Made by a program: the position numbers and the translations under genes. A DNA stretch of 35,464 nucleotides, taken from the NCBI GenBank assembly GCA_017519145.1, contig JAFWTA010000016.1, forward strand, positions 1 to 35,464, written 5' to 3'. Of this stretch, positions 2,897 through 26,116 are shown one piece after another. The DNA is from Ruminococcus sp. GTDB lineage: Bacteria > Bacillota > Clostridia > Oscillospirales > Ruminococcaceae. Position 1 is the stretch's first letter. Each line of letters begins with the position of its first letter. The notes beneath the pieces were generated by a model that was given only the letters and a program-made list of their open reading frames with translations, ran no database searches and was not told the origin of the DNA.

Positions 2897-2926
2897 AATA
2901 TTTATCCTTTCAAGAATTCGGTCTGT

Positions 2927-3391: not shown

Positions 3392-3393
3392 AA

Positions 3394-4563: not shown

Positions 4564-4614
4564 AAAGTCCTCCTTATGGCAGACTGCCTATCGGACTTTT
4601 TCAGACACACTATT

Positions 4615-4644
4615 ATTATAACGCTGAAAGGCAGTCAAAATCAA
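4615..4644 (-). promoter_or_regulatory. Promoter for argD-argF
   Basis: On the minus strand, -35 TTGATT (complement of 4639-4644) and -10 TATAAT (complement of 4615-4620) are 18 bp apart. An inverted repeat, GACTGCCT at 4582-4589 and AGGCAGTC at 4629-4636, brackets the -10 box and could be an operator. A second TATAAT-like box on the same strand (complement of 4658-4663) lacks a good -35. Confidence 0.6.
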
Positions 4645-4709
4645 TCTTTGAAGTTTTATTATAAGTAAATTTTTTGTATACAAGTAAATTATTTTATGAG
4701 AAGCAATCC

Positions 4710-5576
4710 TCACACGAACTGTGTGCCGATGCCCTCGTTGGAAAGTATCTCGATAAGGATAGAGTGAGGAACTCTTCCGTCGATGATGACTGTCTTGCTC
4801 ACGCCGCGTCTGACAGCCTCAACACAGCAGTCTATCTTGGGTATCATGCCGCCCGAGATTATGCCCTGTCTCTTCAGGAAGGGCACCTCGCTGACATTTA
4901 CCTCGGGGATAAGTGTGGACGGGTCGTCCTTATCGCGGAGAAGTCCGGCGATATCGGTCATGAGGATGAGGTTCTCCGCACCCAGCTCAGCGGCAATTCT
5001 TGCAGCAGCCGTATCCGCATTGATATTATATGTGTTGCCCTCCTCATCGGTGGCAACTGTTGCGATAACGGGGATATTTCCGTTTGCAAGAGCGTCTGTG
5101 ATGGGCTTGGTGTTGACCTTTGTTATCTCGCCGACCCAGCCGAGGTCCTGACCGCCGTCGGTCTTTTTCTTTTCAGCCATGAGCATCTCGCCGTCGATAC
5201 CGCAGAGTCCCACAGCACTGCCCTTGTGCTGAGCCAGAAGCTGTACCAGCTCCTTGTTGACCTTGCCGGAGAGCACCATCTTTACCACATCAACAGTGGC
5301 GTCATCGGTATATCTGAGACCGTTGACAAATCTGCTCTCGATATTGAGCTTTTTGAGCATATCGCTTATCTCCGGGCCGCCGCCGTGTACAAGAACTACC
5401 TTTACGCCGACCAGTGAAAGGAGGACGATATCTGTCATTACAGCGTCCTTGAGCTCCTTGTTGGTCATGGCGTTTCCGCCGTACTTGATAACGAGTATCT
5501 TGTTGTTATACTTCTGTATATACGGCAGGGCGTCTATAAGCACCTGTGACTTCTCGTTATTTGATATCTTTTCCAT
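4710..5576 (-). CDS. argB: N-acetylglutamate kinase
   Basis: It phosphorylates N-acetylglutamate with ATP, the second step of the pathway. The 288-residue protein has the glycine-rich KYGGNAM (31-37), VHGGGPEI (64-71) and the lysine-containing SGGMIPKI near the C-terminus. It carries an N-terminal helix of about 25 residues before the kinase core and ends in GIGTQFV. These two features are known from the hexameric, arginine-inhibited form of the enzyme. With ArgJ recycling acetyl groups, this kinase would be the expected feedback point. AAAGGA lies just ahead of the ATG. The next upstream gene ends 25 bp away. Confidence 0.95.
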   Translation of the reverse strand: MEKISNNEKSQVLIDALPYIQKYNNKILVIKYGGNAMTNKELKDAVMTDIVLLSLVGVKVVLVHGGGPEISDMLKKLNIESRFVNGLRYTDDATVDVVKMVLSGKVNKELVQLLAQHKGSAVGLCGIDGEMLMAEKKKTDGGQDLGWVGEITKVNTKPITDALANGNIPVIATVATDEEGNTYNINADTAAARIAAELGAENLILMTDIAGLLRDKDDPSTLIPEVNVSEVPFLKRQGIISGGMIPKIDCCVEAVRRGVSKTVIIDGRVPHSILIEILSNEGIGTQFV

Positions 5577-5601
5577 TTTCCTTTACTCCCTTTATGTGAA
5601 T

Positions 5602-6213
5602 TTAAGCCTGTCCCGACTTATATTTTATGAAAGCCTGATCTATCAGATACTTCAGCTTTTGCGGATCATCGGACTCCAGCCAATAATTTGCTATTATCCC
5701 ACGAGGATAATGCTCCTCTGTCCTGATCTGTACTCCGCCTTTATTGTCCTTGCCTATCGTATAGGTAACATTTGTGATATTGTCATAAGATATCTGTTCA
5801 AATTTGCCGTAAATAAGAGTCATGATCCGTCTGCTTGTAACAGCAACATCTTTGCCGGGGAAATTCTTTACAAGCTTTACTACGATAAATACACCGAACG
5901 TTATTACTATCACAGGGATTATCCAGATCAAAACCGAACCATCCCAGACAGCATCCGGCGATATTACTTCTTTGTATCCAAGAAAGAATGTAAATCCTAC
6001 CGCGGCTACAATGAGCGTGATCACGATCTCCGCTGCCTTGAAAATACCTTTCCTGTGCATACCTTCTATTGGAAGAGGCGCATTTCCCTTGCCCTTGCCC
6101 TGAACGTACAATATCTGCTCGCCCTCTTCAAGATAGGGAGCAAACTCCTCCTCAAGGAACTCACGGCTCGCATAAGCCTCGTCAGAACTATTATAATAAT
6201 CTTTTTCCGACAT
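5602..6213 (-). CDS. Bacterial PH-like membrane protein
   Basis: This is a 203-residue protein. It has an acidic N-terminus, the segment YLEEGEQILYVQG at about 27-39, two membrane helices (about 58-78 and 93-113), and then a beta-rich domain starting at VAVTSRRIMTLIYGKFEQI. The order matches bacterial PH-domain (bPH) proteins, in which the AVTxRRI strand opens the domain. The biochemical role is unknown. It is one of four relatives in a row between argJ and argB (with 6249-6971, 6989-7699 and 7776-8324), and the start has GAGAGG 7 bases upstream. It lacks the Cys/His repeat of its two upstream neighbours. Confidence 0.7.
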   Translation of the reverse strand: MSEKDYYNSSDEAYASREFLEEEFAPYLEEGEQILYVQGKGKGNAPLPIEGMHRKGIFKAAEIVITLIVAAVGFTFFLGYKEVISPDAVWDGSVLIWIIPVIVITFGVFIVVKLVKNFPGKDVAVTSRRIMTLIYGKFEQISYDNITNVTYTIGKDNKGGVQIRTEEHYPRGIIANYWLESDDPQKLKYLIDQAFIKYKSGQA

Positions 6214-6248
6214 AGCGTTGCCTCTCTTTCACAGAGCGTTTGTGGTCA

Positions 6249-6971
6249 TTATCTTCTCGGGGCATTTGCGCCGCGTATGGCATCCGTGAGTATCCTGCTG
6301 ACTCTTTCAGGATCGTGGATCTTGCCGATACGCACGGGCACAGAGTCTCCGTACCGGCTCCTCATGTTGTTATTTTCAAACTGAACATATCCGACACCAT
6401 TCCTCTGCGAGGTATAACTGACATTTCCCAGCGCCCTCAGATGAAAATTGGTAGGTCTTCCGCCGTGGAGCACTATCACTCTTATATCGGTAATGGCAAA
6501 GAGCGCGTCAAATGTTCCCGCAAGGGCGAGCGCCGAAATAACGATGATGATTATGCCTATAACCGAAAGTACACAGGTCAGTACACCCACTATAGTCAAG
6601 ATGATCCCGACGATGAGTCCTATGACTGCACCTTTCTTTGAAGACGTGGGATCACCCTTAGGCGCAGGACAGTTCTTATCGTGACCGCCTACCCAGAGAA
6701 TATGCTCATTTGCCGTAAGGAACGGCATGAACTGTCTTTCTATGGCAGCATAGTTGTCGTAGGGCAGCTGCTCGTAGTCAGCGTCTGCATAGGTCTGTTC
6801 ATGGCTGTGATCGCACTCTCTTACGTCGTTGATATTGCCGTAAGACTGTTCGTGACTGTGGTCACATTCCGTTCTGTATTCATGAGAGGGAGCTACATAA
6901 TCGTCATCGTATTTCGAGGCATACTGTTCGTTATATTCATCGTAGTCCTCAGTTTTCTTCCTTCCGAACAC
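6249..6971 (-). CDS. Bacterial PH-like membrane protein with CDHSHEQ repeats
   Basis: This is a 240-residue protein starting at a GTG, with an AGGCGGTG site upstream. The first 65 residues are hydrophilic and rich in Asp/Tyr/His. They hold two copies of a 17-residue repeat with CDHSHEQ at 36-42 and 53-59. FLTANEHILWVGG follows, then two adjacent hydrophobic segments (about 113-160) and a PH-like domain opening with FAITDIRVIVLHGG. The regular Cys-His pairs could bind a metal, which is inference. It is a recent duplicate of 6989-7699: the N-terminal region is nearly identical even as DNA, while the C-terminal domain has diverged. Confidence 0.7.
   Translation of the reverse strand: MFGRKKTEDYDEYNEQYASKYDDDYVAPSHEYRTECDHSHEQSYGNINDVRECDHSHEQTYADADYEQLPYDNYAAIERQFMPFLTANEHILWVGGHDKNCPAPKGDPTSSKKGAVIGLIVGIILTIVGVLTCVLSVIGIIIIVISALALAGTFDALFAITDIRVIVLHGGRPTNFHLRALGNVSYTSQRNGVGYVQFENNNMRSRYGDSVPVRIGKIHDPERVSRILTDAIRGANAPRR
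6874..6925. repeat. 52-bp direct repeat shared with 7602-7653
   Basis: These 52 bases are identical to 7602-7653. They encode the same N-terminal segment (SKYDDDYVAPSHEY region) of two neighbouring bPH-like genes. Flanking sequence is also similar but has substitutions. This marks a recent tandem gene duplication or gene conversion limited to the 5' ends. Confidence 0.85.
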
Positions 6972-6988
6972 GCTGACACCGCCTTTCG

Positions 6989-7699
6989 CTACATTTTATT
7001 GATACGGGCTCCAACAGAGGCGTCCTCGATTATACGCTGTACTCTGGGAGCGTCACTGATCTTGTACATTGTGAAGATCCTCGTTTTATCTCTGCTGCAC
7101 GGGGAACTGTTTACGGGAAAATCCAGATTCAGCTTCAGCAAGCCGTCTGACGTGCCGAGCCTGCTGACATATTGTATCCAGCCGAGCGGGATGGAGATGT
7201 TTTTGCCGCCCTGCACGGCTATTACCCTGATATCGGTAACAGCGTAGGCATAGCGCTTTTCCAGTACCATCAAGCATATCCCCAATGTCAGGATCAAGAC
7301 ACCAAGCATACTCATCCACATTGTGATAAAATCGCCGAACAGGAACATCACCAATCCTGCCACAAGCAGTTTCGTTCCCATGCCGCTTCTTCGACTGAAG
7401 GCTTTGATGGTGCCGCCTGCCCAGAGCAGGTGCTCATTGGGAGCCAGCAGTTTTTCCATGCTGTTTTCGAGGCTGACACGCTTATCGTAGGGCTTCTGCT
7501 CCGTGTCTGCGTCCTCGTAGGTCTGTTCGTGACTGTGATCGCACTCTCTGACCTCGTTTATATCGCTGTATGACTGCTCGTGACTGTGGTCACATTCCTC
7601 CCTGTATTCATGAGAGGGAGCTACATAATCGTCATCGTATTTCGAGGCATACTTCTCGTTATAGTCTTCGTAGTCCTCGTTGTTTTTTTTGCCGAACAT
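6989..7699 (-). CDS. Bacterial PH-like membrane protein with CDHSHEQ repeats
   Basis: This is a 236-residue paralogue of 6249-6971 with the same layout. The N-terminal acidic/Tyr-rich segment carries CDHSHEQ at residues 36-42 and 53-59, followed by LLAPNEHLLWAGG. Two hydrophobic helices (about 113-147) precede the PH-like strand YAVTDIRVIAVQGGK. The ATG is preceded by AGGTGAG. A stretch of 52 bases (7602-7653) is identical to 6874-6925 in the neighbour. The function is unknown. The position inside the arginine cluster suggests co-transcription only, not a role in arginine synthesis. Confidence 0.7.
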   Translation of the reverse strand: MFGKKNNEDYEDYNEKYASKYDDDYVAPSHEYREECDHSHEQSYSDINEVRECDHSHEQTYEDADTEQKPYDKRVSLENSMEKLLAPNEHLLWAGGTIKAFSRRSGMGTKLLVAGLVMFLFGDFITMWMSMLGVLILTLGICLMVLEKRYAYAVTDIRVIAVQGGKNISIPLGWIQYVSRLGTSDGLLKLNLDFPVNSSPCSRDKTRIFTMYKISDAPRVQRIIEDASVGARINKM

Positions 7700-7775
7700 C
7701 TGCTCACCTGCCCCAATTCTTTTATACGATCACCTGACGGAATTTCTCAGAAAGCTCATAGCTATCGGCATAATA

Positions 7776-8324
7776 TCACCACTGCTGCCAGCGCTCGATC
7801 TCTTCCTGCTTTTTACGGGTCTTTGCCACAACATCTGTCTTCTCTTTCAATATATCCCTGACCGTTTCAGCGTCTTCCACATCATACATGGTCTGGGACT
7901 GCATCTCCGGCTTATTGGTTTTTCTTAAATTAAGGACCACATCAGCCTTGCCGCTTTTTTTCTTCTTCGTGACATACACGCTGCTTACAGCGCCGTAATC
8001 CAGTATCTTGTATGTGGAGCGATGGAATAAAAGTATCCTCTTATCAGTAAGTATATAGCTCTTCGGCCACTCCAGCGAAACAGCTGCCGCCAGCAGCCAT
8101 GAGCCCAGTATTGTCAGGACAATGATAATATTTTCATTGATCCTGAAGTCAACAAATCTCAGCAGACCTATTCCAAGCAGAGGGAACACCACAGCAAACG
8201 GAAGCAGTAATTCCAGCCTCAGATGAGGGCTTTTGCTGCCATTTGTATTGCTCCAGAGAACTCTTTCATCGTCATCAAGGTATTGCTCATACTCTGTTTC
8301 GATGATATCGCCGTTAGCTGCCAT
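7776..8324 (-). CDS. Bacterial PH-like membrane protein
   Basis: This 182-residue protein is the first of the four bPH-like genes after argJ, 31 bp from the argJ stop. An upstream in-frame GTG (8333) is possible, but AGGGTG lies at the right distance from the ATG at 8324. It has YLDDDERVLWSN near the N-terminus, two membrane helices (about 38-56 and 65-85), then the PH-like YILTDKRILLFHRSTYKI strand. A charged, possibly helical tail ends in ERWQQW. It shares the E-(Q/H/R)-x-LW motif with the other three but has no CDHSHEQ repeat. The function is unknown. Confidence 0.7.
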   Translation of the reverse strand: MAANGDIIETEYEQYLDDDERVLWSNTNGSKSPHLRLELLLPFAVVFPLLGIGLLRFVDFRINENIIIVLTILGSWLLAAAVSLEWPKSYILTDKRILLFHRSTYKILDYGAVSSVYVTKKKKSGKADVVLNLRKTNKPEMQSQTMYDVEDAETVRDILKEKTDVVAKTRKKQEEIERWQQW

Positions 8325-8355
8325 ACATATCACCCTGTTTCCCGAAAGAAATGTA

Positions 8356-9651
8356 TCAGCTTCTGTAATCGCCGTTTATCTTGACATAGTCATAGGTAAG
8401 GTCGCAGCCCCATGTGATAGCCTTGCCTTTGCCGTCGCCCATTGAGATGAGGATCTTGATCTCCTCCTCCTTGAGTATCCTCTTGGCGATCTCCTCGGAG
8501 AACTCGATAACGCAGCCCTTGCGTCCCAGCGGGATAACTCCGCCCTCAGAAGCCATTTCCACGTCTACCTTATTGATATCAAAATCGGCATCGGAATAGC
8601 CCAGTGCGCAGTAGATACGTCCTGCGTTGGCGTCCTCGCCGAAGATCATAGCCTTTATGAGGCTGGATGTAACGACTGACTTTGCTACCTTTTCTGCGAT
8701 CTCATCGGTCTCTGCACCTCTTACAGCGCACTCGATGAGCTTTGTAGCGCCCTCGCCGTCCCTTGCCATCATTCTTGCAAGGTTCATCATTATAGCGTAG
8801 AGAGCGTGTCTGAACTTCTCATACTCTCCGTCCTCTGAGGTAACAGGCTTGTTGCCTGCCTCGCCCGAAGCCATAATGCATACCATATCGTTTGTGGAGG
8901 TGTCTCCGTCAACGCTTGCACGGTTGAGAGTTACCTTGACGATGTCGCTGAGAGCCAGCTGTATCATCTCGGGAGAGATATCGGCGTCTGTGGTAAGGAA
9001 GGTAAGAGTGGTAGCCATATTGGGGTGGATCATTCCGCTTCCCTTGAGCATACCGCCCATGGTGCAGATCTTTCCGCCCAGCTCGAACTGAACAGCTATC
9101 TCCTTCTCGCGGGTATCGGTGGTCATGATAGCCTCAAGAGCTCTCTTGTTGCCGTCGTAGGTAAGACCTCCTGCAAGGTCGTCCATAGCGTTTGCGATGG
9201 GCTCGATGGGGAGCACCTGACCGATAACGCCTGTGGAAGCCACGATAACGTCGTTCTCGTCGATGCCCAGAGCCTTTGCAGCCAGCTGACACATCTTTGT
9301 TGCCTTCTCAACGCCGTCGGGGTTGCAGGTGTTTGCATTTACCGAGTTAACGATAACAGCCTTAGCCTTTCCGTCCTTGATATGCTCCTTTGTTACAAGT
9401 ATGGGAGCTCCCTTCACCTTGTTTGTGGTATATACGGCAGCAGCGCTGCACATCTTGTCTGCAACTATAAGCGCAAGGTCGTTTTTCTTCTTGGCTGAGG
9501 GAAGTGCGTTGTTTGCAGCGGCATTTGCCTCATCCATATCATTCAGGGGCTTGTGAGCAAGACCGCACTGTACGCCGTTGGCTCTGAAGCCCTTTGCAGC
9601 GCACACGCCTCCCTCAACAAAAGTGATACCCTTTACATCAACAAGCTTCAT
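8356..9651 (-). CDS. argJ: Glutamate N-acetyltransferase / amino-acid acetyltransferase
   Basis: ArgJ moves the acetyl group from N-acetylornithine to glutamate, closing the cyclic pathway; many members also acetylate glutamate from acetyl-CoA. The 431-residue precursor contains KGSGMIHPNMATTL at 203-216. Self-cleavage is expected before T214, which becomes the nucleophile of the beta chain. The ATG at 9651 has AAGGAGG 9 bases upstream and overlaps the end of the preceding gene by 14 bp, so translation is probably coupled. Compared with typical ArgJ there is an extra stretch of about 20 residues around 32-56 (AHKPLNDMDE to SAKKK) near the N-terminus. Confidence 0.95.
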   Translation of the reverse strand: MKLVDVKGITFVEGGVCAAKGFRANGVQCGLAHKPLNDMDEANAAANNALPSAKKKNDLALIVADKMCSAAAVYTTNKVKGAPILVTKEHIKDGKAKAVIVNSVNANTCNPDGVEKATKMCQLAAKALGIDENDVIVASTGVIGQVLPIEPIANAMDDLAGGLTYDGNKRALEAIMTTDTREKEIAVQFELGGKICTMGGMLKGSGMIHPNMATTLTFLTTDADISPEMIQLALSDIVKVTLNRASVDGDTSTNDMVCIMASGEAGNKPVTSEDGEYEKFRHALYAIMMNLARMMARDGEGATKLIECAVRGAETDEIAEKVAKSVVTSSLIKAMIFGEDANAGRIYCALGYSDADFDINKVDVEMASEGGVIPLGRKGCVIEFSEEIAKRILKEEEIKILISMGDGKGKAITWGCDLTYDYVKINGDYRS

Positions 9652-10066
9652 GCTCTGTTTCCTCCTTGATCTTCTTTGCGAATTTCGCAACTATGTCCAT
9701 ATATTCCTCTTTTGCCTGCTCGCAGTCCCAGCAGTGGGACTTTGCCAAGAGGGCAGCGTTCTCAAGAACGGGCTCTACCTGATGATAGTAGAGCTTCAGA
9801 TATTTCTCCTTGCCCATAAAGAGGTTGTACATCAGCTGTCCCTCGAACATCTCGCCGATGAAGGGGTCATCGCTGAGCATTTCGATGGCTCTCTTTATCG
9901 CCACCTTCGAGCATATCTTCTGGCGCAGCATACGGCTTACGTCAGAAACATTGAGCTGATCCTTTGTTTTTTCCATGATAGTGTTGAACCACTCATCCAC
10001 GGTATAGTCGATACCGTCATCCTCAATAAGATCATATTCATAGATCTCTCTAAGTTTTTTACTCAT
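9638..10066 (-). CDS. CdiI-immunity-like small protein (tentative)
   Basis: This is a 142-residue soluble, mainly helical acidic protein. The middle segment, LNVSDVSRMLRQKICSKVA then AIEMLSDDPFIGEMFEGQL, has the pattern of contact-dependent growth inhibition immunity proteins (an LtxxDxxRxLxQ helix, then a helix, then a D-P-x-x-GExxEG turn). This is recalled family knowledge, not a search result. A GGGGGG ribosome site lies 7 bases before the ATG. The gene sits between argC (28 bp upstream) and argJ (overlapping 14 bp). No toxin gene is nearby, so an orphan immunity gene or an unrelated helical protein are both possible. Confidence 0.55.
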   Translation of the reverse strand: MSKKLREIYEYDLIEDDGIDYTVDEWFNTIMEKTKDQLNVSDVSRMLRQKICSKVAIKRAIEMLSDDPFIGEMFEGQLMYNLFMGKEKYLKLYYHQVEPVLENAALLAKSHCWDCEQAKEEYMDIVAKFAKKIKEETEHEAC

Positions 10067-10093
10067 TTTTATTCCCCCCGATATGAAAACATA

Positions 10094-11047
10094 TCATATT
10101 AAACCTGTTGTCTCGTCGATACCCATCATTATGTTGAGGCACTGAACGGCAGCGCCGCTTGCGCCCTTGCCAAGATTGTCAAGACGCGAGCAGAGGAGTA
10201 TCTGCTCATCGTTTCCGAAAACGAATACCTGCATTTTGTTCTGTCCGCTGAGAGTATTTGATGCAAGGAAGAAGCTCTTCTGCTCATCTGCGGACATAAG
10301 AGGCATTACCTCTATCATGTTTGCGCCTGAGTAATGTTTCTTATACATCTCATGTACCTGCCGGGCAGTGACCTTTTTGTCAAGCATTCTCGTCTGGAGT
10401 GGAACGCTTACCACCATGCCGCTGTAATAGTCGCAGACCATGGGATTGAACATGGGAGTGTAGGTGAGTCCCGAAACAGCCTTCATCTCGGGCAGGTGCT
10501 TATGCTGCTGAGAGAGTGCGTACTGACGGGGGCTGTTGAACTCATAGGGCTTATCATCGCCCTCGTATACTGCGATAGCCTTCTTGCCTGCTCCGCTGTA
10601 GCCCGATGTGGCATAGGCGAATACGGGGAAGTCCGCAGGGATCATGCCGCTGCTTACCAGAGGATAAACTATGGAAGCAAAGCCGCTTGCATAGCAGCCC
10701 GGAACAGCAACTCTGTTTGAGGTCTCTATCTTTGCTCTGTGAGCGGCAGAGAGTTCCGGGAAGCCGTAAGCCCAGTCGGGATTGGTGCGGTGAGCCGTAG
10801 ATGCGTCGATGATGCGGACATGGTCGTTATCCTTGTCAATAAAGGACACAGCCTCTATGGAAGCAGCATCGGGCAGGCAGAGGAAAACATAGTCTGCACT
10901 GTTTATAAGTCTTGCACGCTCGGCAGGGTCCTTTCTCAGCTCCTCGCTGATCTTCATGATCTCAACGTCGTTTCTTCCCTTGAAACGCTCCTGTATCTTG
11001 AGACCTGTGGTACCTTCCTGACCGTCTATATATACTTTAACTGACAT
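10094..11047 (-). CDS. argC: N-acetyl-gamma-glutamyl-phosphate reductase (short type)
   Basis: It reduces N-acetylglutamyl phosphate to the semialdehyde with NADPH. The ATG at 11047 is chosen because GGAGG lies 8 bases upstream; the frame stays open further upstream without a start signal. The 317-residue product is the short (type 2) form. The catalytic cysteine is C118 in AVPGCYASG, the N-terminal nucleotide-binding segment is VYIDGQEGTTG (5-15), and the C-terminus has NLGKGASGAAVQ. The gene is followed 28 bp later by the CdiI-like gene. Confidence 0.95.
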   Translation of the reverse strand: MSVKVYIDGQEGTTGLKIQERFKGRNDVEIMKISEELRKDPAERARLINSADYVFLCLPDAASIEAVSFIDKDNDHVRIIDASTAHRTNPDWAYGFPELSAAHRAKIETSNRVAVPGCYASGFASIVYPLVSSGMIPADFPVFAYATSGYSGAGKKAIAVYEGDDKPYEFNSPRQYALSQQHKHLPEMKAVSGLTYTPMFNPMVCDYYSGMVVSVPLQTRMLDKKVTARQVHEMYKKHYSGANMIEVMPLMSADEQKSFFLASNTLSGQNKMQVFVFGNDEQILLCSRLDNLGKGASGAAVQCLNIMMGIDETTGLI

Positions 11048-11182
11048 TGTTTTTTCCTCCGTTTTCATGTCTTTCATAGTGGGCGTCTTTATTTGCGAAG
11101 CGCCTGTAGTATTCGGGTAGGCTGTCCCCCTGATCGGGTACGCCGCGCTCATCAGGCTTCTAACAGCTAAGGGCTAAAAAGC

Positions 11183-11431
11183 TCACTTCCTGCGCTTGCT
11201 GACCTTTCTGTCATACTTTGCCTGCTTGGGATCCTTGGTGTCGGACTTGTCCTCTATCATGGAGTGCCATACACTGACTCCGAGGGTAATAATAACTATA
11301 AGAGCGAACCAGAATATATGGGCACTGGGTATAACTGCCACCCACAGTCCCATTACCAGCTCACCTATCCCCCAGATAACGCCCATGAGGATAGTGAGAC
11401 CGATAGTAAAGGTTATATCCTTTTTCTTCAT
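11183..11431 (-). CDS. Small two-TM membrane protein
   Basis: This is an 82-residue protein. Two hydrophobic helices (about 8-30 and 37-57) are followed by a highly charged tail ending in SKRRK. Its start lies one base after the argH stop (TGATATG) and has no clear ribosome site, so translation would depend on re-initiation after argH. The position between argH and argC and the intact frame support a real gene. I do not recognise the family. Confidence 0.6.
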   Translation of the reverse strand: MKKKDITFTIGLTILMGVIWGIGELVMGLWVAVIPSAHIFWFALIVIITLGVSVWHSMIEDKSDTKDPKQAKYDRKVSKRRK

Positions 11432-11432
11432 A

Positions 11433-12812
11433 TCAGAGACCCAGTGCCTTCTCCGCCAGAGCTATCTGCTCCTTTACAGCGTCAGGTGAGGGACCTCCCT
11501 CTGACTTTCGCTCGCGGACGCAGGTATCAAGGCTTATAGCCTCGTAAACGTCCTCGGTAAAGAGTTCTGTCATAGCCTGATAGTCCTCAAGAGGAAGTGT
11601 CTCGAGAGTGAGTCCCTTTTCGATGCACTGAGCAACGAGGGTTCCTGTTATCTTGTAAGCGTCACGGAAGGGCATACCCTTCTTTACGAGGTAGTCTGCG
11701 CAGTCCGTAGCGTTTATGAAGCCCTTTGCGGCAGCGTGTCTCATGTTGTCCTTGAGTACGCGCATAGTTGCCAGCATGGGAGTGAATGTCTTTACGCAGA
11801 GCTTCACGTTGTCAACGGCGTCGAATATAGCCTCCTTGTCCTCCTGCATATCCTTGTTGTAAGCAAGGGGAAGTCCCTTCATCATGGTGAGGAGGGTCAT
11901 GAGGTCGCCGTTCACTCTGCCTGTTTTTCCGCGGATAAGCTCCGTAACATCGGGGTTCTTCTTCTGGGGCATTATGGAGGAGCCTGTTGCAAAGGCATCG
12001 TCAAGCTCCACGAACTTGAACTCCCATGAGCACCAGAGGATTATTTCCTCGGAAAAACGTGAGAGATGTGTCATCAGCAGTGACAGAGCGCAGCCCAGCT
12101 CAACGCAGTAGTCCCTGTCGGAAACGCCGTCAAGGCTGTTGGGCATGGGAGCCGTAAAGCCGAGGAGCTCCGAGGTCTGCTTTCTGTTGGTCTTATATGT
12201 AGTACCTGCAAGAGCGCCGCTGCCAAGGGGGCAGTAATTCATTCTCTTTGCGGTATCCTGAAGTCTTTCCATATCGCGGAGGAGCATCCACACATACGCC
12301 ATGAGGTGATGAGCGAGTGTGATGGGCTGAGCGCGCTGTAAATGAGTATATCCGGGCATTATGGTCTCGGTGTGATCCTTAGCCATATTCACCAGAGTAA
12401 CAGCAAGCTCCTTCACCATAGCATATATCTCGTCTATCTCATCGCGGAGGTAGAGTCTCAGGTCAACTGCCACCTGATCGTTTCTTGAACGTGAGGTGTG
12501 GAGTCTCTTTCCAACGTCACCGAGACGCTTTGTAAGCTCAGCCTCAACGAACATATGGATATCCTCGGCGTTGGGGTCAAGCTCCAGCTTGCCGCTGTCG
12601 ATATCGGCGAGGATGCCCTTGAGCCCCTCGATGATAGTGAGACTGTCCTCCTTGGTGATAATGCCGCAGTCTCCCAGCATTGTTGCGTGGGCTATACTGC
12701 CCTGTATATCGTGACGGTACATACGTCCGTCAAAGGCTATTGAAGAATTGAAAGCGTTGACGCCTGCGTCCACCTGCTTTGAAAATCTTCCTGCCCACAT
12801 CATATCTGCCAT
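11433..12812 (-). CDS. argH: Argininosuccinate lyase
   Basis: It splits argininosuccinate into arginine and fumarate, the last step. The 459-residue length is usual. The fumarase-superfamily signature GSSIMPQKKNPD is at 277-288, with the catalytic Ser in that mobile loop. TSRSRNDQ (107-113) and TPGYTHLQRAQP-like IMPGYTHLQRAQP (151-163) are also present. AAAGGAG lies 8 bases before the ATG. The GNAT gene ends 13 bp upstream, so they share a transcript. Confidence 0.96.
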   Translation of the reverse strand: MADMMWAGRFSKQVDAGVNAFNSSIAFDGRMYRHDIQGSIAHATMLGDCGIITKEDSLTIIEGLKGILADIDSGKLELDPNAEDIHMFVEAELTKRLGDVGKRLHTSRSRNDQVAVDLRLYLRDEIDEIYAMVKELAVTLVNMAKDHTETIMPGYTHLQRAQPITLAHHLMAYVWMLLRDMERLQDTAKRMNYCPLGSGALAGTTYKTNRKQTSELLGFTAPMPNSLDGVSDRDYCVELGCALSLLMTHLSRFSEEIILWCSWEFKFVELDDAFATGSSIMPQKKNPDVTELIRGKTGRVNGDLMTLLTMMKGLPLAYNKDMQEDKEAIFDAVDNVKLCVKTFTPMLATMRVLKDNMRHAAAKGFINATDCADYLVKKGMPFRDAYKITGTLVAQCIEKGLTLETLPLEDYQAMTELFTEDVYEAISLDTCVRERKSEGGPSPDAVKEQIALAEKALGL

Positions 12813-12825
12813 TGCTTTTACTCCT

Positions 12826-13269
12826 TTATGTATCTATTCTCACGATATCTGCGAGAGAAATGTTTCTGTATGTAAGGTCATCTCTTACAGTGAATCCGAC
12901 CTTTTCCCAGAATGCGTTGCCGTTCTCATTTCTTGAAAATACCACCAGTGCGACCTTGTTTATACCGAGCGACTTCAGCGCATTCAATGCCTTGTCAACA
13001 AGCTCGGAGCCTATCCCACGGCGTCTGTAGTCAGGGTTTACAGCCGTATGATAGATGTAGCCTCTTCTTCCGTCATTGCCGGCAATGATAACTCCGGCTA
13101 TGCTGCCGTCTTCTTCTGCAACGAAACAGGTCTCCGGATTTCTTGCGAGGTACTTCTCTATACCCTCTCTTGAATCGTCAAGATTGTTCAGTCCCATTCC
13201 GGCACAGGAAAGCCACAGTGCGCAGACCTTATCGTAGTCGTCGATAGTCATGAGCCTTACGTTCACCAT
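12826..13269 (-). CDS. GNAT N-acetyltransferase, YpeA-like
   Basis: This is a 147-residue GNAT-fold acetyltransferase. The acetyl-CoA binding motif A is YRRRGIGSELVDKAL (about 80-94). The earlier GYIYHTAVNPDYR strand and the C-terminal NAFWEKVGF are also standard. The order (a W-x-x-C segment near 19-23, then CFVAEEDGSIAGVIIAGNDGRRG) resembles E. coli YpeA. The substrate is unknown. The position directly ahead of argH raises the possibility that it makes N-acetylglutamate to prime the cycle, but YpeA-like proteins are not known for that, and this is inference. Confidence 0.8.
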   Translation of the reverse strand: MVNVRLMTIDDYDKVCALWLSCAGMGLNNLDDSREGIEKYLARNPETCFVAEEDGSIAGVIIAGNDGRRGYIYHTAVNPDYRRRGIGSELVDKALNALKSLGINKVALVVFSRNENGNAFWEKVGFTVRDDLTYRNISLADIVRIDT

Positions 13270-13287
13270 GTTATCCCCGCCCTTTTC

Positions 13288-13370
13288 AATTCATAATTCA
13301 TAATGCTCAATTCATAATTATTCGTTCAGCAATGCTTTAATTATGCATTATGCATTATGAATTATGCATT
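13288..13370. repeat. AT-rich inverted-repeat element
   Basis: A 19-bp arm at 13288-13306 (AATTCATAATTCATAATGC) pairs with 13352-13370 with a single mismatch. The 45 bp between them contains further variants of the same ATTCATAATT/ATTATGCAT words. The element resembles small palindromic, MITE-like repeats common in Clostridia. It lies between argG and the GNAT gene. Confidence 0.7.
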
Positions 13371-13384
13371 CTATTAAATCGTAA

Positions 13385-13410
13385 CAGGCAGGAGAAGGCT
13401 CCCCTGCCTG
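13385..13410 (-). terminator. Hairpin after argG
   Basis: CAGGCAGG (13385-13392) pairs with CCTGCCTG (13403-13410), 37 bp after the argG stop. On the minus strand the hairpin is followed by GTTACGATTTAAT, a weak T tract. It is probably a partial terminator separating argG from the GNAT-argH unit; no clear promoter is seen for that unit. Confidence 0.6.
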
Positions 13411-13446
13411 AAACTGATATATACTTATATTGCGGCTGAAAGAGAA

Positions 13447-14682
13447 TTACTTGTTGTTTCTCTTCTTGTCCAGCTGAGCTCTAACCTTGATCGGGAGACC
13501 GAAGAGGTTGATGAAGCCTGCTGCGTCAGCCTGATTGTAAACCTCATCCTCATCGAATGTGGCAACTTCCTCATCGTAGAGAGTATAGGGTGAAGTAACG
13601 CCTGCATTGATGATGTTGCCCTTGTAGAGCTTGAGCTTAACGTCGCCTGTAACTCTCTCCTGAGTCTTGTCAACGAAAGCTGTGAGAGCTTCACGGAGAG
13701 GTGTGTACCACTGACCGTTGTAAACGATGTCAGCGAACTTGATTCCGAGGTACTGCTTTATTCTTGCAGTCTCCTTGTCGAGAGTGATGGTCTCGAGAAC
13801 CTCGTGTGCATGGTAAAGGATAGCACCGCCGGGAGTCTCATAAACGCCTCTTGACTTCATACCAACGAGACGGTTCTCAACGAGATCAGCAAGACCGATA
13901 CCGTTCTCGCCGCCAAGCTTGTTGAGAGCTGATACCATCTCAACGCCGTTGAGTGTCTTGCCGTCCAGCATTGTGGGAACGCCCTTCTCGAAGTGGAGAG
14001 TGATGTATGTGGGCTTGTCGGGAGCGTCGATAGGTGAAACGCCCATTTCAAGGAAGCCCTTCTTCTCGTACTGAGGCTCGTTTGCAGGATCCTCAAGGTC
14101 GAGACCCTCGTGTGAGAGGTGCCAGATGTTCTTGTCCTTGGAGTAGTTTGTCTCTCTGTTTATCTTCAGGGGGATGTTGTGAGCCTCTGCGTAGTCGATC
14201 TCCTCGTCACGGCTCTTGATGTCCCATTCTCTCCAGGGAGCGATGATAGCCATTTCGGGAGCGAACGCCTTGATAGCCAGTTCAAATCTTACCTGATCGT
14301 TGCCCTTACCTGTGCAGCCGTGGCAGATAGCGTCAGCGCCCTCAGCCAGAGCGATCTCAGCGATGCGCTTAGCGATGATGGGACGAGCGAATGATGTACC
14401 CAGCATATATCTGTTCTCATAGATAGCGCCTGCCTGAACTGTGGGGTAAACGTAGTCCTGAATGAACTCCTCCTTGAGGTCTGCGATGATGAGCTTGGAA
14501 GCGCCTGTCTTGATAGCCTTCTCCTCGAGACCGTCAAGCTCTGTGCCCTGTCCTACGTCACCTGAAACAGCGATAACTTCGCAGTTGTTGTAGTTTTCCT
14601 TGAGCCACGGGATGATGATAGATGTATCAAGACCGCCGGAATATGCGAGAACTACCTTTTTGATATCCTTCTTATTAGCCAT
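13447..14682 (-). CDS. argG: Argininosuccinate synthase
   Basis: It joins citrulline and aspartate with ATP to make argininosuccinate. The 411-residue product starts at the ATG at 14682, with AGGAGGT 7 bases upstream; an in-frame ATG at 14718 lacks such a site. The PP-loop ATP motif AYSGGLDTS is at 13-21. [15 protein letters not shown] and the Glu-rich segments that bind citrulline/aspartate are intact. It is the first gene of the arginine cluster and has its own promoter (14743-14770) with ArgR-type boxes upstream. Confidence 0.97.
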
Positions 14683-14742
14683 GGTTATTACCTCCTGAAT
14701 ATTGAGCGCCGCGTACACAGCGCGTATTTGCGATATAACTCT

Positions 14743-16098: not shown

Positions 16099-17274
16099 AT
16101 GAATTACGCAGAAGAATCACTTAAAAAGCACTATGAATGGCAGGGCAAGATCGAAGTTATCTGCCGTGCTCCCCTTGAGACAAGAGACGACCTCTCACTG
16201 GCTTACACTCCCGGTGTTGCACAGCCCTGTCTCGAGATACAGAAGGACGTAGACAAGAGCTATGAGCTCACACGCCGCTCAAACCTTGTTGCAGTTGTTA
16301 CCGACGGTACTGCTGTGCTCGGTCTCGGTGACATCGGACCCGAGGCAGGTATGCCCGTTATGGAGGGCAAGTGCGCTCTGTTCAAGGCATTCGGCGACGT
16401 TGACGCAGTTCCGCTGTGTGTACGCTCCAAGGAAGTTGACGACATCGTCAACACAGTCCGCCTCCTTGCAGGCTCATTCGGCGGCGTAAATCTTGAGGAC
16501 ATCTCCGCTCCCCGCTGCTTCGAGATCGAGAAGAAGCTGAAGGAGTGCTGTGATATCCCGATATTCCACGATGACCAGCACGGTACAGCAGTAGTTACCC
16601 TCGCAGCTATGCTCAACGCCCTCAAGGTAGTAGGCAAGAAGCTGGACGAGATCAGAGTAGTTACCAGCGGCGCAGGTGCAGCAGGTATCGCTATCATCAA
16701 GCTCCTCATCTCCATGGGTCTCAAGGACGTTGTTCTCTGTGACAGAAACGGAGCTATCTACAAGGGACGTCCCGAGGGCATGAACCCCATGAAGGACGAA
16801 ATGGCTGAGATCACAAACCAGCAGATGAGAAAGGGCAGCCTTGAAGAAGTTATCAAGGGCGCAGATGTGTTCATCGGCGTATCAGCTCCCGGCTGCGTAA
16901 CTCCCGAGATGGTAAAGAGCATGGCTCCCGACCCCATCCTCTTCCCCATGGCTAACCCCACTCCCGAGATCATGCCCGAGGAGGCAAAGGCAGCAGGTGC
17001 CGCAGTAGTGGGCACAGGAAGAAGCGACTTCCCCAACCAGATAAACAACGTACTTGCATTCCCCGGAATTTTCCGCGGAGCTCTTGACGTCCGTGCAAGC
17101 GACATCAACGACGCTATGAAGATAGCTGCTGCAAAGGCTATCGCTTCATTCGTAACAGATGACAAGCTCAGCGCAGACTACATCATCCCCAGCGCACTGG
17201 ACAAGACCGTAGCACAGGCTGTTGCCAAGGCAGTTGCACAGGCTGCAAAGGACACAGGCGTAGCAAGAATATAA
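16099..17274 (+). CDS. Malic enzyme (NAD(P)-dependent, decarboxylating)
   Basis: It converts malate to pyruvate and CO2 with reduction of NAD(P). The ATG at 16099 has AAAGGA 8 bases upstream; the frame is open further upstream but runs over the end of the preceding gene. The 391-residue length is that of the short bacterial enzyme without a phosphotransacetylase domain. VTDGTAVLGLGDIGPEAG, the catalytic-lysine region MPVMEGKCALFKAFG, the metal site FHDDQHGTAVV, and the nucleotide loop GAGAAGIAI are visible. Together with the upstream dehydrogenase it could form the malate shunt. Cofactor preference cannot be read with confidence from the sequence. Confidence 0.93.
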   Translation: MNYAEESLKKHYEWQGKIEVICRAPLETRDDLSLAYTPGVAQPCLEIQKDVDKSYELTRRSNLVAVVTDGTAVLGLGDIGPEAGMPVMEGKCALFKAFGDVDAVPLCVRSKEVDDIVNTVRLLAGSFGGVNLEDISAPRCFEIEKKLKECCDIPIFHDDQHGTAVVTLAAMLNALKVVGKKLDEIRVVTSGAGAAGIAIIKLLISMGLKDVVLCDRNGAIYKGRPEGMNPMKDEMAEITNQQMRKGSLEEVIKGADVFIGVSAPGCVTPEMVKSMAPDPILFPMANPTPEIMPEEAKAAGAAVVGTGRSDFPNQINNVLAFPGIFRGALDVRASDINDAMKIAAAKAIASFVTDDKLSADYIIPSALDKTVAQAVAKAVAQAAKDTGVARI

Positions 17275-17560
17275 GCGGCGAGCCGCCGCTCCCTGTTTCG
17301 CGGTCAAGTTATGTCAGATATGAGCTTTGACTCCGCGTATCCTGTTCTCTGCAAGCGGCACTATATAGTTAGTGAGCCGCCGCTCCCTGTTTCGCGGTCG
17401 AGTTATGTCAGATATGAGCTTTGACCCCGCGTATCCTGCTCTCTGCAAGCGGCACTATATAGTTGGCGAGCCGCCGCAGGCTGTTTCACGGTATAATTAC
17501 AGTAAACAGGTACTTTTATGCCGCGCTGCTTGCTATTTGCAAAAAGATGTGTTATAATTG
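17274..17560. repeat. Array of three 94-bp repeats carrying promoters and hairpins
   Basis: The units begin with GAGCCGCCGC at 17280, 17374 and 17468, exactly 94 bp apart. The first two are nearly identical; the third is diverged in its middle. Each has a GC hairpin (for the first, AGCGGCG-AGC-CGCCGCT, 17274-17290), then TTTCGCGG about 30 bp before CCGCG, and a -10-like box about 84-85 bp from the start. The final unit ends in a perfect promoter. The same family, also with a 94-bp period, occurs at 24809-25000. A partial fourth start (GAGCCG) lies at 17560. Apart from these repeats the 348-bp gap has no gene. Confidence 0.9.
17530..17558 (+). promoter_or_regulatory. Promoter in the last repeat unit, for the SUFU-domain gene
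   Basis: TTGCTA (17530-17535) and TATAAT (17553-17558) are 17 bp apart. The -10 starts 85 bp after the GAGCC of its repeat unit, the same offset as in the copy upstream of potA. Confidence 0.8.
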
Positions 17561-17592
17561 AGCCGTGGAGCGTATTGCTCCGCGGCTTTTGT
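17561..17592 (+). terminator. Terminator overlapping the promoter start region
   Basis: AGCCGTGGAGC (17561-17571) and GCTCCGCGGCT (17577-17587) form an 11-bp stem with one G-T pair and a 5-base loop, followed by TTTTGTT. It should stop transcripts coming from malic enzyme. The promoter at 17530-17558 would start within the left arm, so its own transcript would lack part of the stem. Confidence 0.7.
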
Positions 17593-17622: not shown

Positions 17623-18705
17623 ATGAGTAAGATAATTTTTGAATCAAGGTCGCCTATATGCGACATCGACGCAGTTATCGAAGAAGACGACAGCACATAC
17701 TATATGTACCTTATGACTGCCCCCGAGACAGGAGTAAAGCTGCTGAAGGCGCTGTGGGTGTGCAACCGCCGCCCGGCTCCCGAAGTGTTCGATCCTCAGT
17801 GTATGAAGGACGGAAAGGCTCCCATGCTCGCAAAGGAGAACCTCTCGCCCATACACCCTGCGGCAGGCATAACTCTCAATCCCGATAAGCTCTCCTGCTA
17901 TTGGTACGACAGCGGCGACTCCGCAGCCATATTCTACGGTGGCAAGCTGCTCTGTGCGATACCGCCCTATGCAGGACTTCACGACTTCCCCGGATTTTCC
18001 GTTTTTGCCAAGGGTCAGACCCGTTATGCGTGGGGAATGCCACAGACTCCCGATTTTACAGAGCGTGCAAAGGGTCTGAAGACTTTCTGGGAGAATATCG
18101 AGGCTGACGACTCATGGCCCGAGATACAGGACGAGTGCCTGAGAGTCATCGAGGAGTTCTACGGCAGCCGGCACGAGAAGTATTACGCCATAGACGGCGG
18201 AAATTTTCCGCCAAAGGCTCTTGCTCAGGGCAGAAAGAACGGAGTTGTTTACGGTATCACTCTCGGCGTCAGCCAGTTCGCAATGCCCCGTTCCGAGATG
18301 GTATTCGGCAGCCACTATAACGACTGCAACCGTATAGAGCTGGGATTTGCCGCACAGGAGCGCCATGAGCCCCTGACACAGATGATGTTCTCGGTAATGT
18401 CCGATGTTGCAAATATGCCGTGGAACGAGCATGACTTTCTCTGGCACGGACACACCTTCGATTTTCCCAATATAAAGGGATTTTCGCAGATCTTACTCAT
18501 CAATCCCGCATACATAGAGGGCATGGAGTGCCCACAGTGGAGAAGATTTCTGGGCAACCGCGTAAATCTTCTGTGGCTGGTGCCCATAACCGCAGAGGAG
18601 TTCAAGGCTCTCAGCGAAAACGGCATCGCGGAAATGATAAAGATATGTGCCGAGCCTCAGAAGCTCCACATATTCGACGGCAGGCCCAAATTCTTACTGA
18701 GATAA
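17623..18705 (+). CDS. Suppressor-of-fused (SUFU) domain protein
   Basis: This is a 360-residue soluble protein. The C-terminal half shows the SUFU pattern: a WxExDF/HGHTF segment (MPWNEHDFLWHGHTF), then LLINPAY, and NLLWLVPITAEEFKAL near the end, which is the most recognisable motif of bacterial SUFU proteins. The N-terminal half, with WVCNRRPAPEVFDPQ and GDSAAIFYGGKLLCAIPPYAG, is less familiar. SUFU proteins occur as immunity proteins in bacterial toxin systems, but no toxin gene is adjacent. AAGGAG lies 6-7 bases before the ATG. The gene has its own promoter and terminator, so it is monocistronic. Confidence 0.8.
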   Translation: MSKIIFESRSPICDIDAVIEEDDSTYYMYLMTAPETGVKLLKALWVCNRRPAPEVFDPQCMKDGKAPMLAKENLSPIHPAAGITLNPDKLSCYWYDSGDSAAIFYGGKLLCAIPPYAGLHDFPGFSVFAKGQTRYAWGMPQTPDFTERAKGLKTFWENIEADDSWPEIQDECLRVIEEFYGSRHEKYYAIDGGNFPPKALAQGRKNGVVYGITLGVSQFAMPRSEMVFGSHYNDCNRIELGFAAQERHEPLTQMMFSVMSDVANMPWNEHDFLWHGHTFDFPNIKGFSQILLINPAYIEGMECPQWRRFLGNRVNLLWLVPITAEEFKALSENGIAEMIKICAEPQKLHIFDGRPKFLLR

Positions 18706-21618: not shown

Positions 21619-21966
21619 ATGCCAGTCAGAAGAGGAGAAATATATTACGCCGACCTGAGCCCCGTAGTAGGCTCGGAACAGGGCGGCATCAGACCTGTAC
21701 TTATAGTCCAGAACGACGTGGGCAACAGGCACAGTCCCACGGTCATCGCGGCTGCAATAACCAGTCAGCGCGACAAGAACCGACTGCCCACACATATAGA
21801 GGTGCAGGCGGATAAATGCGGTCTCGCCAAGGACAGCATAGTGCTGCTGGAGCAGATCCGCACTATCGACAAGAAGCGGCTCAAGGACAAAATGGGCGAG
21901 CTGGACCTTAACTCCATGAACAAGGTGGACACTGCCCTGTCCATAAGCTTCGGACTTGAAATATGA
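21619..21966 (+). CDS. mazF: MazF/NdoA-type mRNA interferase
   Basis: This is a 115-residue toxin of the PemK/MazF fold. The N-terminal [20 protein letters not shown]-type segment, [18 protein letters not shown] and [13 protein letters not shown] are almost those of Bacillus NdoA (EndoA), which cuts single-stranded RNA at a short specific sequence. No MazE-like antitoxin gene is next to it: the 108 bp upstream contain no open frame of that size. GGGAG precedes the ATG. A terminator follows. In Firmicutes this chromosomal form is often widely conserved, so it is more likely a housekeeping stress interferase than a newly acquired module. Confidence 0.93.
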
Positions 21967-24742: not shown

Positions 24743-24808
24743 ATTTTCACCCTTTCGCAAGCTTTGTCCTTAAAGGATATGCCTGCCCCTTCGGAATTAT
24801 TCTATGAG

Positions 24809-25000
24809 CGGGGAGCCCCCGCCGGCTGTTTCGCGGCAAAGTTCTTGTGCAGGGCAGCTTTTTCTCCGCGTTTCTTGCTATTTCTTCACTAATGTGCTAT
24901 AAGCGGGGAGCCCCCGCTGCCCTTTTCGCGGCAGAGTTCTTATACACGGCAGTTTTTTCGCCGCGTTTCTTGCTATTAATAAAATAATGTGCTATAATTA
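24809..25000. repeat. Array of two 94-bp promoter-hairpin repeats
   Basis: GCGGGGAGCCCCCGC hairpins lie at 24809-24823 and 24903-24917, 94 bp apart. Each is followed by TTTCGCGG, about 30 bp, CCGCG, and then TTGCTA-17-TATAA(G/T). The first unit's -10 (TATAAG, 24898-24903) abuts the second hairpin. The family is the same as at 17274-17560. There the hairpin is GCGGCG-AGC-CGCCGC, so the stem bases differ in a compensatory way. The 321-bp gap (24743-25063) otherwise holds no gene. Confidence 0.9.
24970..24998 (+). promoter_or_regulatory. Promoter of potABCD in the last repeat unit
   Basis: TTGCTA (24970-24975) and TATAAT (24993-24998) are 17 bp apart, giving a leader of about 58 bases to potA. 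An earlier copy of the promoter (24875-24903, TTGCTA-17-TATAAG) lies in the first unit. Confidence 0.82.
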
Positions 25001-25063: not shown

Positions 25064-26116
25064 ATGGAAAATATCGTCAGCTTAAAGGATATCATCGTGG
25101 AATTTGAGGAGGGCGAGCGTATCCTCAAAAACATCAGTCTCGACATCAAGGATAAGGAGTTCGTTACCTTTCTCGGGCCTTCGGGCTGCGGAAAGACCAC
25201 CACTCTCCGCATAATCGCAGGATTTCTCGAGCCCACCAGCGGAGATGTGTTCTTCGACGGCAAGCGCATAAACGGAGTTCCGCCCCACAAGCGCAACGTC
25301 AACACCGTATTCCAGCGCTATGCACTTTTCCCCCACCTCAACGTCTATGAGAACATTGCTTTCGGACTCAGAGTCAAGAACACTCCCGAAAAGGAAATAG
25401 TGAAACGCGTAGGAGAAATGCTTGAGCTGGTGAACCTTATGGGCTTTGAGAAGCGCTCCATAAACCGTCTTTCCGGCGGTCAGCAGCAGCGTGTCGCCAT
25501 TGCCCGTGCTCTGGTGAACCACCCCAAGGTGCTCCTCCTTGACGAGCCTCTGGGAGCTCTTGACCTGAAGCTGAGGAAGGAGATGCAGATAGAGCTCCGC
25601 CGCATTCAGCAGGAGCTGGAGCTGACTTTCGTCTACGTTACCCACGATCAGGAGGAAGCTCTCACCATGAGCGACAGCATCGTTGTCATGAACAACGGCT
25701 ATATCCAGCAGATAGGCTCCCCTACGGACATTTACAACGAGCCTGTCAACGCATTCGTTGCCGACTTCATCGGCGAGAGCAACATCGTCAACGGCTGTAT
25801 GCCCGAGGACTGCGTGGTAGAGTTCACGGGACGCCGCTTTGAATGCGTGGACAAGGGCTTTGACCCCAACGAGACCGTTGACGTCGTTATCCGTCCCGAG
25901 GACGTTAAGGTGATCCCTGCGGAAAAAGCCAAGCTGACGGGCATAGTTGAGTCCGTGGTGTTCAAGGGCGTTCACTACGAGATGATAGTTGACGGCGTTG
26001 ACCACAAGTGGGTGATACACTCCACAAAGGCTGAGCCCGTGGGACAGATGATAGGCATGACCTTTGACCCCTTCGATATACATATCATGAAGAAAACGGA
26101 GGACAGTGCAGAATGA
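25064..26116 (+). CDS. potA: Spermidine/putrescine ABC transporter ATP-binding protein
   Basis: This is the ATPase subunit of the polyamine importer. The 350 residues have Walker [10 protein letters not shown] at 38-46, Q-loop Q84, signature LSGGQQQR at 136-143, Walker B LLLDEP at 157-162, the H-loop in YVTHDQEEA, and a C-terminal TOBE regulatory domain ([10 protein letters not shown] onward). It starts the potABCD operon, and its stop overlaps potB by ATGA. Other ABC importers of the CUT family look similar, but the neighbours fix the call. GGAAGGGATCCGG precedes the ATG. Confidence 0.95.

Follow-up and report, generated by a model that had tools for sequence, protein, structure and literature searches.

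A short hairpin element of Ruminococcus that appears to jump into gene start signals, copying the signal on landing so that the gene stays on

Two short tandem arrays of one repeat, in which a GC-rich hairpin is joined to a sigma-A promoter, stand ahead of two genes in the stretch of DNA analyzed here (the window, 35,464 nt, contig C21 of a 3.17-Mb Ruminococcus genome), and they raised the question of what such a unit is and how it came to lie there. A preliminary description of the window had seen in it either a spreading element that delivers promoters or an array of small-RNA or regulatory units. Rfam covariance models gave no match to the window at their gathering thresholds. Elsewhere in the window, the region ~1988-14718 (-) is presumably an arginine biosynthesis cluster (argF, argD, argB, argJ, argC, argH, argG), judging from its ORFs, and the ORF at 21619-21966 (+) has the look of what we take to be a MazF/PemK-type endoribonuclease toxin.

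Each unit was composed of a core of ~64 bp and ~31 bp of promoter. The core began with hairpin 1 (six pairs, loop AGC) and continued with a spacer, TTTCGCGG, ~28 nt and CCGCG; about 4 nt 3' of this CCGCG stood the promoter part, TTGCTATT-N10-TATGNTATAA. An 8-bp imperfect match between the core ends (GCGGGGAG and CTCCGCGC) was found by eye. All five units of the window lie on the forward strand (+) and belonged to the training set of the covariance model (CM) described below, and their E values are those of training units. In the first array, the 64-bp core of unit A1 (17275..17338; CM match 17275-17367, E 6e-13) contained the hairpin GCGGCG AGC CGCCGC at 17275-17289 and the stem arms CGCGG (17299-17303) and CCGCG (17333-17337), and its degenerate promoter part (17339..17367, CCTGTTCTC...CACTATATAG) was poor as a sigma-A promoter. 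The core of A2 (17369..17432, E 2e-9), with the left hairpin arm decayed to TTAGTG, was also followed by a degenerate promoter part (17433..17461). The core of A3 (17463..17526, E 1e-15) carried the hairpin TTGGCGAGCCGCCGC, its left arm degraded to TTGGCG, and the arms CACGG (17487-17491, instead of CGCGG) and CCGCG (17521-17525); its promoter part (17527..17558), with the -35 TTGCTA (17530-17535), 17 bp and the TG-extended -10 TATAAT (17553-17558), lay where sister species lacking the unit have their native promoter. The gene that follows (17623..18705, +, ATG 17623) was identified by family search as encoding a SUFU-domain protein. The second array consisted of the B1 core (24808..24871, E 1e-18; hairpin GCGGGG AGC CCCCGC at 24808-24822, arms 24832-24836 and 24866-24870), the B1 promoter part (24872..24902), in which TTGCTATT...TATAA continues into the next hairpin (TATAAG), the B2 core (24903..24966, E 2e-18; hairpin 24903-24917, arms 24927-24931 and 24961-24965) and the B2 promoter part (24967..24998; -35 TTGCTA 24970-24975, -10 TATAAT 24993-24998). 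Its downstream gene (25064..26116, +, ATG 25064) encodes a TOBE-domain ATPase of an ABC transporter, which we take to be potA of a spermidine/putrescine-type operon.

Most of what had been reported of the two arrays was borne out: GAGCC recurred with an exact 94-bp period in array 1 (17280, 17374 and 17468), the last units of both arrays carried TTGCTA-17-TATAAT with the -10 85 bp past GAGCC (17468 to 17553; 24908 to 24993), the arrays preceded unrelated genes, and their GC hairpins differed in a compensatory way. Two points required correction, as array 2 was periodic but with 95 bp and not 94 (GAGCC at 24813 and 24908), and the CGCGG/CCGCG arms were kept across the units except for the CACGG of A3. 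A terminator-like hairpin (GCCGTGGAGC/GCTCCGCGGC with TTTTGTT; 17562..17592, +) begins 4 nt past the -10 of A3 (window 17553-17592), and a hairpin resembling it was present in sister genomes both with and without units; either the promoter runs straight into a terminator or the hairpin is a 5' stem-loop.

The units belonged to a large repeat family. The pattern TTTCGCGGN{15,45}CCGCG matched the genome 37 times and its reversed control 4 times, and a promoter pattern with up to two mismatches, which also caught promoters without a core, 88 times against none; hence, the family is not due to chance. A CM built from 25 units yielded at least 63 matches at E<=1e-3 in the same genome, training units included, among the best 150 of 1749 first-look candidates. 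At E<=0.01 it matched 15 of 23 other Ruminococcus genomes, with 1 to 85 matches each (G046 sharing its match coordinates with G009, the 85-match genome; G and L are our labels for genomes and loci, G000 being the genome of the window), and, weakly, 4 of 16 genomes from outside the genus, with one match apiece at E >= 1e-3. A search with the exact pattern across 84,980 species, each represented by a single genome, returned 56 stretches from 15 assemblies, all titled Ruminococcus bar one MAG titled Bacillota that aligned with them; since this pattern is strict, the lack of a match in other species means that no close copy occurs there. Where searched, the family is confined to Ruminococcus, and the many further copies, both in this genome and in its relatives, agreed with the proposal of a spreading family with a kept structure. 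Where an array had an orthologue in one of three genomes, Ruminococcus flavefaciens SAb67 and ND2009 and the MAG USPA_maxbin.103, the flanks were ~83-99% identical. The phage and plasmid collections gave no match to the unit; a viral-contig collection contained one exact-pattern unit (L275, IMGVR_UViG_2799112465_000005, 6815-6888), possibly in a bacterial flank or a Ruminococcus prophage. No account of this Ruminococcus family was found in the open-licence PMC literature. A second abundant and apparently unrelated repeat (GTAGGGGACGGCGTCCTCGACGTCCC-like) was seen at ~590-622 of L128 and in many places across the genus, with many matches of ~27-40 bp, mostly exact or nearly exact.

Both stems of the core were predicted by RNAalifold without guidance. 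In a MAFFT alignment, two-sided changes were counted in 13 cells against 4.9 in shuffles, and the number of pairs showing them (2) was not above that of shuffles (1.4). An alignment fitted to the model, comprising 70 matches (67 distinct) and biased towards the structure, gave 8 of 11 pairs and 45 cells changed on both sides, against 3.0 and 7.2 after shuffling, and all six hairpin pairs were among them, so that the hairpin covariation to be expected of a conserved stem was present in this alignment. When four of the window cores were folded as single-stranded DNA, three formed both stems and A3 did not, the folding being clearly better than that of shuffles only in A1 (z -3.5) and B2 (z -2.1). 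Short, present in many dispersed copies and devoid of coding capacity, the core resembles a MITE.

The organization of the arrays was strongly polar. After removal of overlapping-locus duplicates (166 arrays reduced to 113), 113 distinct arrays of one to five units remained (58, 39, 13, 2 and 1, respectively). Units with unparsable cores were dropped in the comparison of units (170 reduced to 133). The last unit ended in TATAAT in 101/104 cases, and non-last units in TATAAG in 64/66. Multi-unit arrays ending in a promoter numbered 54; in 52 of them the last unit outscored the first, and the first unit was 5'-truncated in 37 and the last in none; when the first unit was full-length, the last still outscored it in 13 of 15. 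Neighbouring units with promoter ends were spaced by 94 or 95 bp in 78 of 90 cases and by 92-96 bp in 88. Arrays with a promoter end numbered 108, of which 92 ran in the same direction as the next called gene, 13 in the opposite one and 3 had no gene called, genes being called by a simple longest-ORF rule; the median distance from -10 to start was 49 nt (90 cases). Fifteen of the 113 arrays lay inside a called ORF, and some such ORFs are probably spurious. Most of these loci had been selected for a good promoter end; 56 loci of set 1 were fetched by a pattern demanding a good unit that ends in TATAA, which biases the set-1 figures for promoter ends and direction accordingly. These data agreed with the earlier statements that copies mostly lie ahead of unrelated genes and that the offset of the -10 is near-constant among them; the downstream genes look unrelated, two having been tested and the others named mostly by the look of their sequences. 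The idea of a small-RNA array was not supported, as an intact -10 was mostly confined to the last unit, and a transcript started from an intermediate unit would begin inside hairpin 1. The 94-95-bp period (sets 1 and 2) corresponds roughly to nine turns of B-DNA; upstream sites would then keep their helical face, which may be a coincidence.

Related genomes differed by whole units. Orthologous arrays of sister genomes differed in unit number (L016 one, L119 two; L018/L129 two, L170 one; L023 two, L121 one; L025 three, L163 four; L017 two, L126 three). The first unit of L129 lacked the hairpin and its second was not a copy of the first; L170 contained only the first of these two units, ending in TATAAT. 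At the site of array 1, which follows a malic-enzyme gene, 11 relatives were read; units were present in G000, G040, G043 and G044, and six of the 11 (G053, G048, G007, G052, G045 and G002) had no units and no profile match, except for a match to the promoter part alone in G053 (E 0.49). Five of the six, all but G002, had a native promoter ahead of this place, with the -10 TATACT in G048. The malic-enzyme gene ends in a stop codon within the letters TATAA, the first core of array 1 begins immediately after them, and there is no visible direct repeat. Hairpin-like remnants past the stop codon were found in G006 (by eye) and G019 (E 0.008), with similar junctions; either the core inserted directly at the stop codon or a later deletion fused two TATAA words.

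Furthermore, the potA gene was matched in 3 of 14 genomes searched, none of the three with a complete unit and two with a clear TATAAT, one of these (G012) showing a weak partial profile match (positions 49-95, E 0.009). At locus L146, all 12 relatives searched lacked the core and had TATAAT at the same place, with at most promoter-part profile matches (E>=0.16). Thus, most relatives that lack a complete unit at the three promoter loci carry a native promoter in its place, which speaks against the proposal that the element delivers promoters.

The same conclusion was reached from a terminator locus, readable in the query genome, SAb67, and in 11 of the 12 genomes searched with it. Cores were found there in the genome of the window (five), SAb67 (one, L128), G043 (two, one truncated), G044 (one), G019 (one), G041 (two), G048 (two) and G053 (one, eroded); G007 had a hairpin-like remnant only, seen by eye, and 3 of the 12 genomes read (G006, G045 and G042) had no core. 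The core of G019 (64 bp) was flanked by perfect 22-bp repeats with a local variant, CACAAGGGCG, in both copies, and that of G044 by a 25-bp perfect repeat, or 33 bp with one mismatch. None of these cores carried a promoter, which shows that the core does not include one. In the genome of the window (contig C47, L175 2070-2511), the five promoterless cores follow each other with a period of about 93-94 bp. Copies of hairpin 1 and the second stem were also observed to start directly past what, by eye, looks like a tRNA 3' end in L007 (~1500), L105 (~1500) and L181 (~2000); no clear direct repeat was seen at L105 and L181.

The origin of the promoter was clearest at L146, where a perfect 31-bp direct repeat spanning -35 to -10 flanks the core with an offset of 95, which leaves 64 bp for the core. 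This repeated promoter occurred in none of the other loci compared; both copies are local sequence, which speaks against promoter delivery at the cleanest insertion and indicates that the promoter is duplicated target. The upstream copy gave a weak profile match (E 0.11, positions 43-94) and might conceivably belong to a very worn older unit. At L221 (G019), a perfect repeat of 22 bp with an offset of 86 again leaves a core of 64 bp. Repeats were also present at L224 (25 bp, perfect), L128 (19) and L180 (16), with 12/14 at L179, so that the repeat length varied by site (31, 25, 22 and about 16-19).

Upstream copies are free to decay, and clear long direct repeats were few, a point against target duplication. 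Among first complete units, at least 15/20 matches between upstream and downstream sequence were obtained in 16/52, against 53/1028 mismatched pairs, and at least 17 in 7/52 against 9/1028. For the 16 units at >=15/20, identity dropped to background past about 29-31 nt, which argues against an eroded whole unit upstream. In the hairpin register, in which first complete units without a found hairpin or too close to a locus end were left out, set 1 gave at least 21/24 matches in 4/43 (1/1806 mismatched pairs), at least 20/24 in 5/43 (12/1806) and at least 18/24 in 6/43 (66/1806), the gap narrowing at the laxer threshold. A second set of loci, fetched as a test of the duplication, gave none of 23 at >=15/20 in the profile register, in which several hairpins were misplaced by the profile; in the hairpin register, at least 18/24 was reached in 2/19 against 2/342 mismatched pairs, and at least 20/24, likewise 21/24, in 1/19 against 0/342. 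TATAA stood directly before the first complete unit in 28/53 of set 1 (profile register, +-3 nt; nearby rate 0.25%), or in 18/43 by hairpin register, and in 4/19 of the second set. Of the 28 TATAA-preceded units, 18 had a TTG -35. The idea that the upstream promoter copy stems from an eroded older unit was rejected, as 3 of the 28 had the look of one and L146 gave the weak match only; among the four best repeats of set 1, L137 had eroded-unit evidence and L032 a core-end-like CGCCCC before the upstream copy. The long duplication is well documented at a few young sites, and we infer it for the rest. Target-site duplications together with empty sites, as known for MITEs, were found at L146 (31 bp) and L221 (22 bp), and are clear at few sites.

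Taken together, the repeat is probably a non-autonomous mobile hairpin with a long target duplication that regenerates the promoter. The mobile part would be the ~64-bp core, GCGG(hairpin)...TTTCGCGG...CCGCGC, inserting in one orientation and preferentially right after the TATAA of a sigma-A -10 (TATAA|T). Insertion would duplicate 22-31 bp of target, which at a promoter amounts to the whole -35 to -10 region, so that the gene would keep its own promoter downstream of the core; such a duplication is much longer than usual for transposons. The upstream copy, ending TATAA|GCGG, would lose the last T of its -10 and decay, and the 94-95-bp period would represent core plus duplicated promoter. Arrays would arise and change as more units are gained, lost or swapped between loci, with the unit nearest the gene retained and those farther upstream eroding. 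Insertion would presumably occur in a single step, with the hairpin recognized as folded DNA by an enzyme acting in trans. In short, the hairpin appears to jump into gene start signals and to copy the signal on landing, and the gene stays on. If so, promoter copying solves the problem that an element meets when it enters essential regulatory DNA, promoter-upstream arrays across Ruminococcus are accounted for, natural promoter rewiring can be studied in bacteria of the gut and rumen, and an integration enzyme yet to be found is pointed to.

A bolder form of this mechanism, which we regard as a tentative possibility with the balance tilted against it, is mobile DNA that targets promoters as such. 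Its machinery, possibly directed by RNA polymerase, would cut both promoter edges, upstream of the -35 on one strand and at the -10 on the opposite strand, to insert the 64-bp folded hairpin, and the promoter copy made each time would render insertion harmless to the gene; repeated rounds would build the polar arrays and displace upstream regulatory sites by ~95 bp, nine turns.

It is rather unlikely that the whole 94-95-bp unit moves, promoter included, entering at TATAA|T with its own promoter. Whole units with their promoter do occur at more than one locus, a point in favour of promoter delivery, and this goes beyond what target duplication alone explains. At the malic-enzyme locus, the last unit, promoter spacer included, differed among genomes whose gene ends are ~95% identical to that of the window; the G044 unit there shared 75 identical nt, ending with TATAA, with a unit that precedes another gene in L164, the two diverging exactly past TATAA; the last unit of L166 equalled an L144 unit, and that of L155 nearly so; L034/L144, L153 and L162 had a common spacer and different cores. 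The underived second unit of L129 points the same way. Units common to different loci imply either recombination within or between loci after insertion or that whole units also move, for which reason this reading keeps some weight. Against it stand the two local promoter copies of L146 (31/31), the native TATAAT in 12/12 relatives without the unit, and the promoterless cores of the terminator locus, where terminator sequence is duplicated instead.

An origin without transposition, in which old promoter-upstream repeats are reshuffled by unequal crossing-over and gene conversion and empty sites are deletions, is considerably less probable still. Adjacent units were indeed alike (mean 0.79 for cores and 0.78 for spacers, against 0.57 and 0.51 for different arrays), and L016 joins the core of L119 unit 1 to the promoter of L119 unit 2; nevertheless, the 12 relatives without a unit at L146 imply as many as 12 precise losses (fewer where a loss was inherited in common), new units such as that of L129 are not derived from their neighbours, and terminator cores are present in some species and absent from others. 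Simple tandem duplication was retained only for later changes of arrays. That the unit is an operator or a transcribed RNA controlling the next gene is very improbable: its structure and its position before genes are kept, mostly in the direction of the next gene, but these genes look unrelated, unit number varies among sisters, the -10 is mostly intact in the last unit only, and cores of the same kind occur at a terminator.

Additionally, several candidate drivers of the favoured mobile hairpin were considered. The logic of IS200/IS605-type elements (Y1 insertion 3' of TATAA) was rejected, as the Y1 transposase (PF01797), present in 5 of 12 genomes, had no match in several unit-bearing ones (no match in G000, G040, G041, G043, G046, G007 and G052). 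IS1634 and Cas1/CRISPR, both prompted by the long repeats, were dropped for the same kind of reason: the IS1634 transposase (NF033559) exceeded the cut-off in 0/14 genomes, with weak sub-cut-off matches in G019 and G045, and Cas1 (PF01867), present in 5/14, had no match in nine, G000 and G046 among them. No parent element with the same ends was found among the own-genome CM matches listed (150 of 1749 candidates scored).

Several known systems share single features with the Ruminococcus repeat. REP/BIME sequences, moved by RAYT (Y1) transposases, and IS200/IS605-derived palindromic elements are short, GC-rich, intergenic and directional hairpins, as is the repeat described here; unlike them, it has long direct repeats, and no Y1 match was obtained in seven of the 12 genomes tested, its own included. 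CRISPR arrays consist of ~30-bp repeats between inserts, with the repeat duplicated at each addition, and repeats of about 30 bp also separate the inserts here; however, these inserts form one homologous family and the own genome had no Cas1 match. RUP, BOX and SPRITE, of pneumococcus, are short palindromic intergenic repeats in a Firmicute, a description that also fits the present family. Of these, RUP and SPRITE are named in PMC10969869. Correia elements and other promoter-bearing bacterial MITEs resemble the unit in being short, non-autonomous and present in many copies upstream of genes with a sigma-70-type promoter (PMC10969869). In Correia elements the promoter belongs to the element (PMC10969869), whereas here, with native promoters at sites without units and local copies at L146, it appears to be the target's own, duplicated. 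Unusually long target duplications, of 16-28 bp, are reported for one subgroup of the IS1202 family in the passages of PMC10132070 on that family; the ISAjo2-type members described there are ~1.5 kb long and coding, with 5'-TGT/ACA-3' ends and 24-26-bp inverted repeats, unlike the 64-bp core, which begins GCGG and ends CGC. Finally, insertion of IS1549 / IS1634 gives long direct repeats of variable length (8-514 bp), according to the portion of PMC2266710 that deals with them, and in the length and variability of its repeats the Ruminococcus element is like these.
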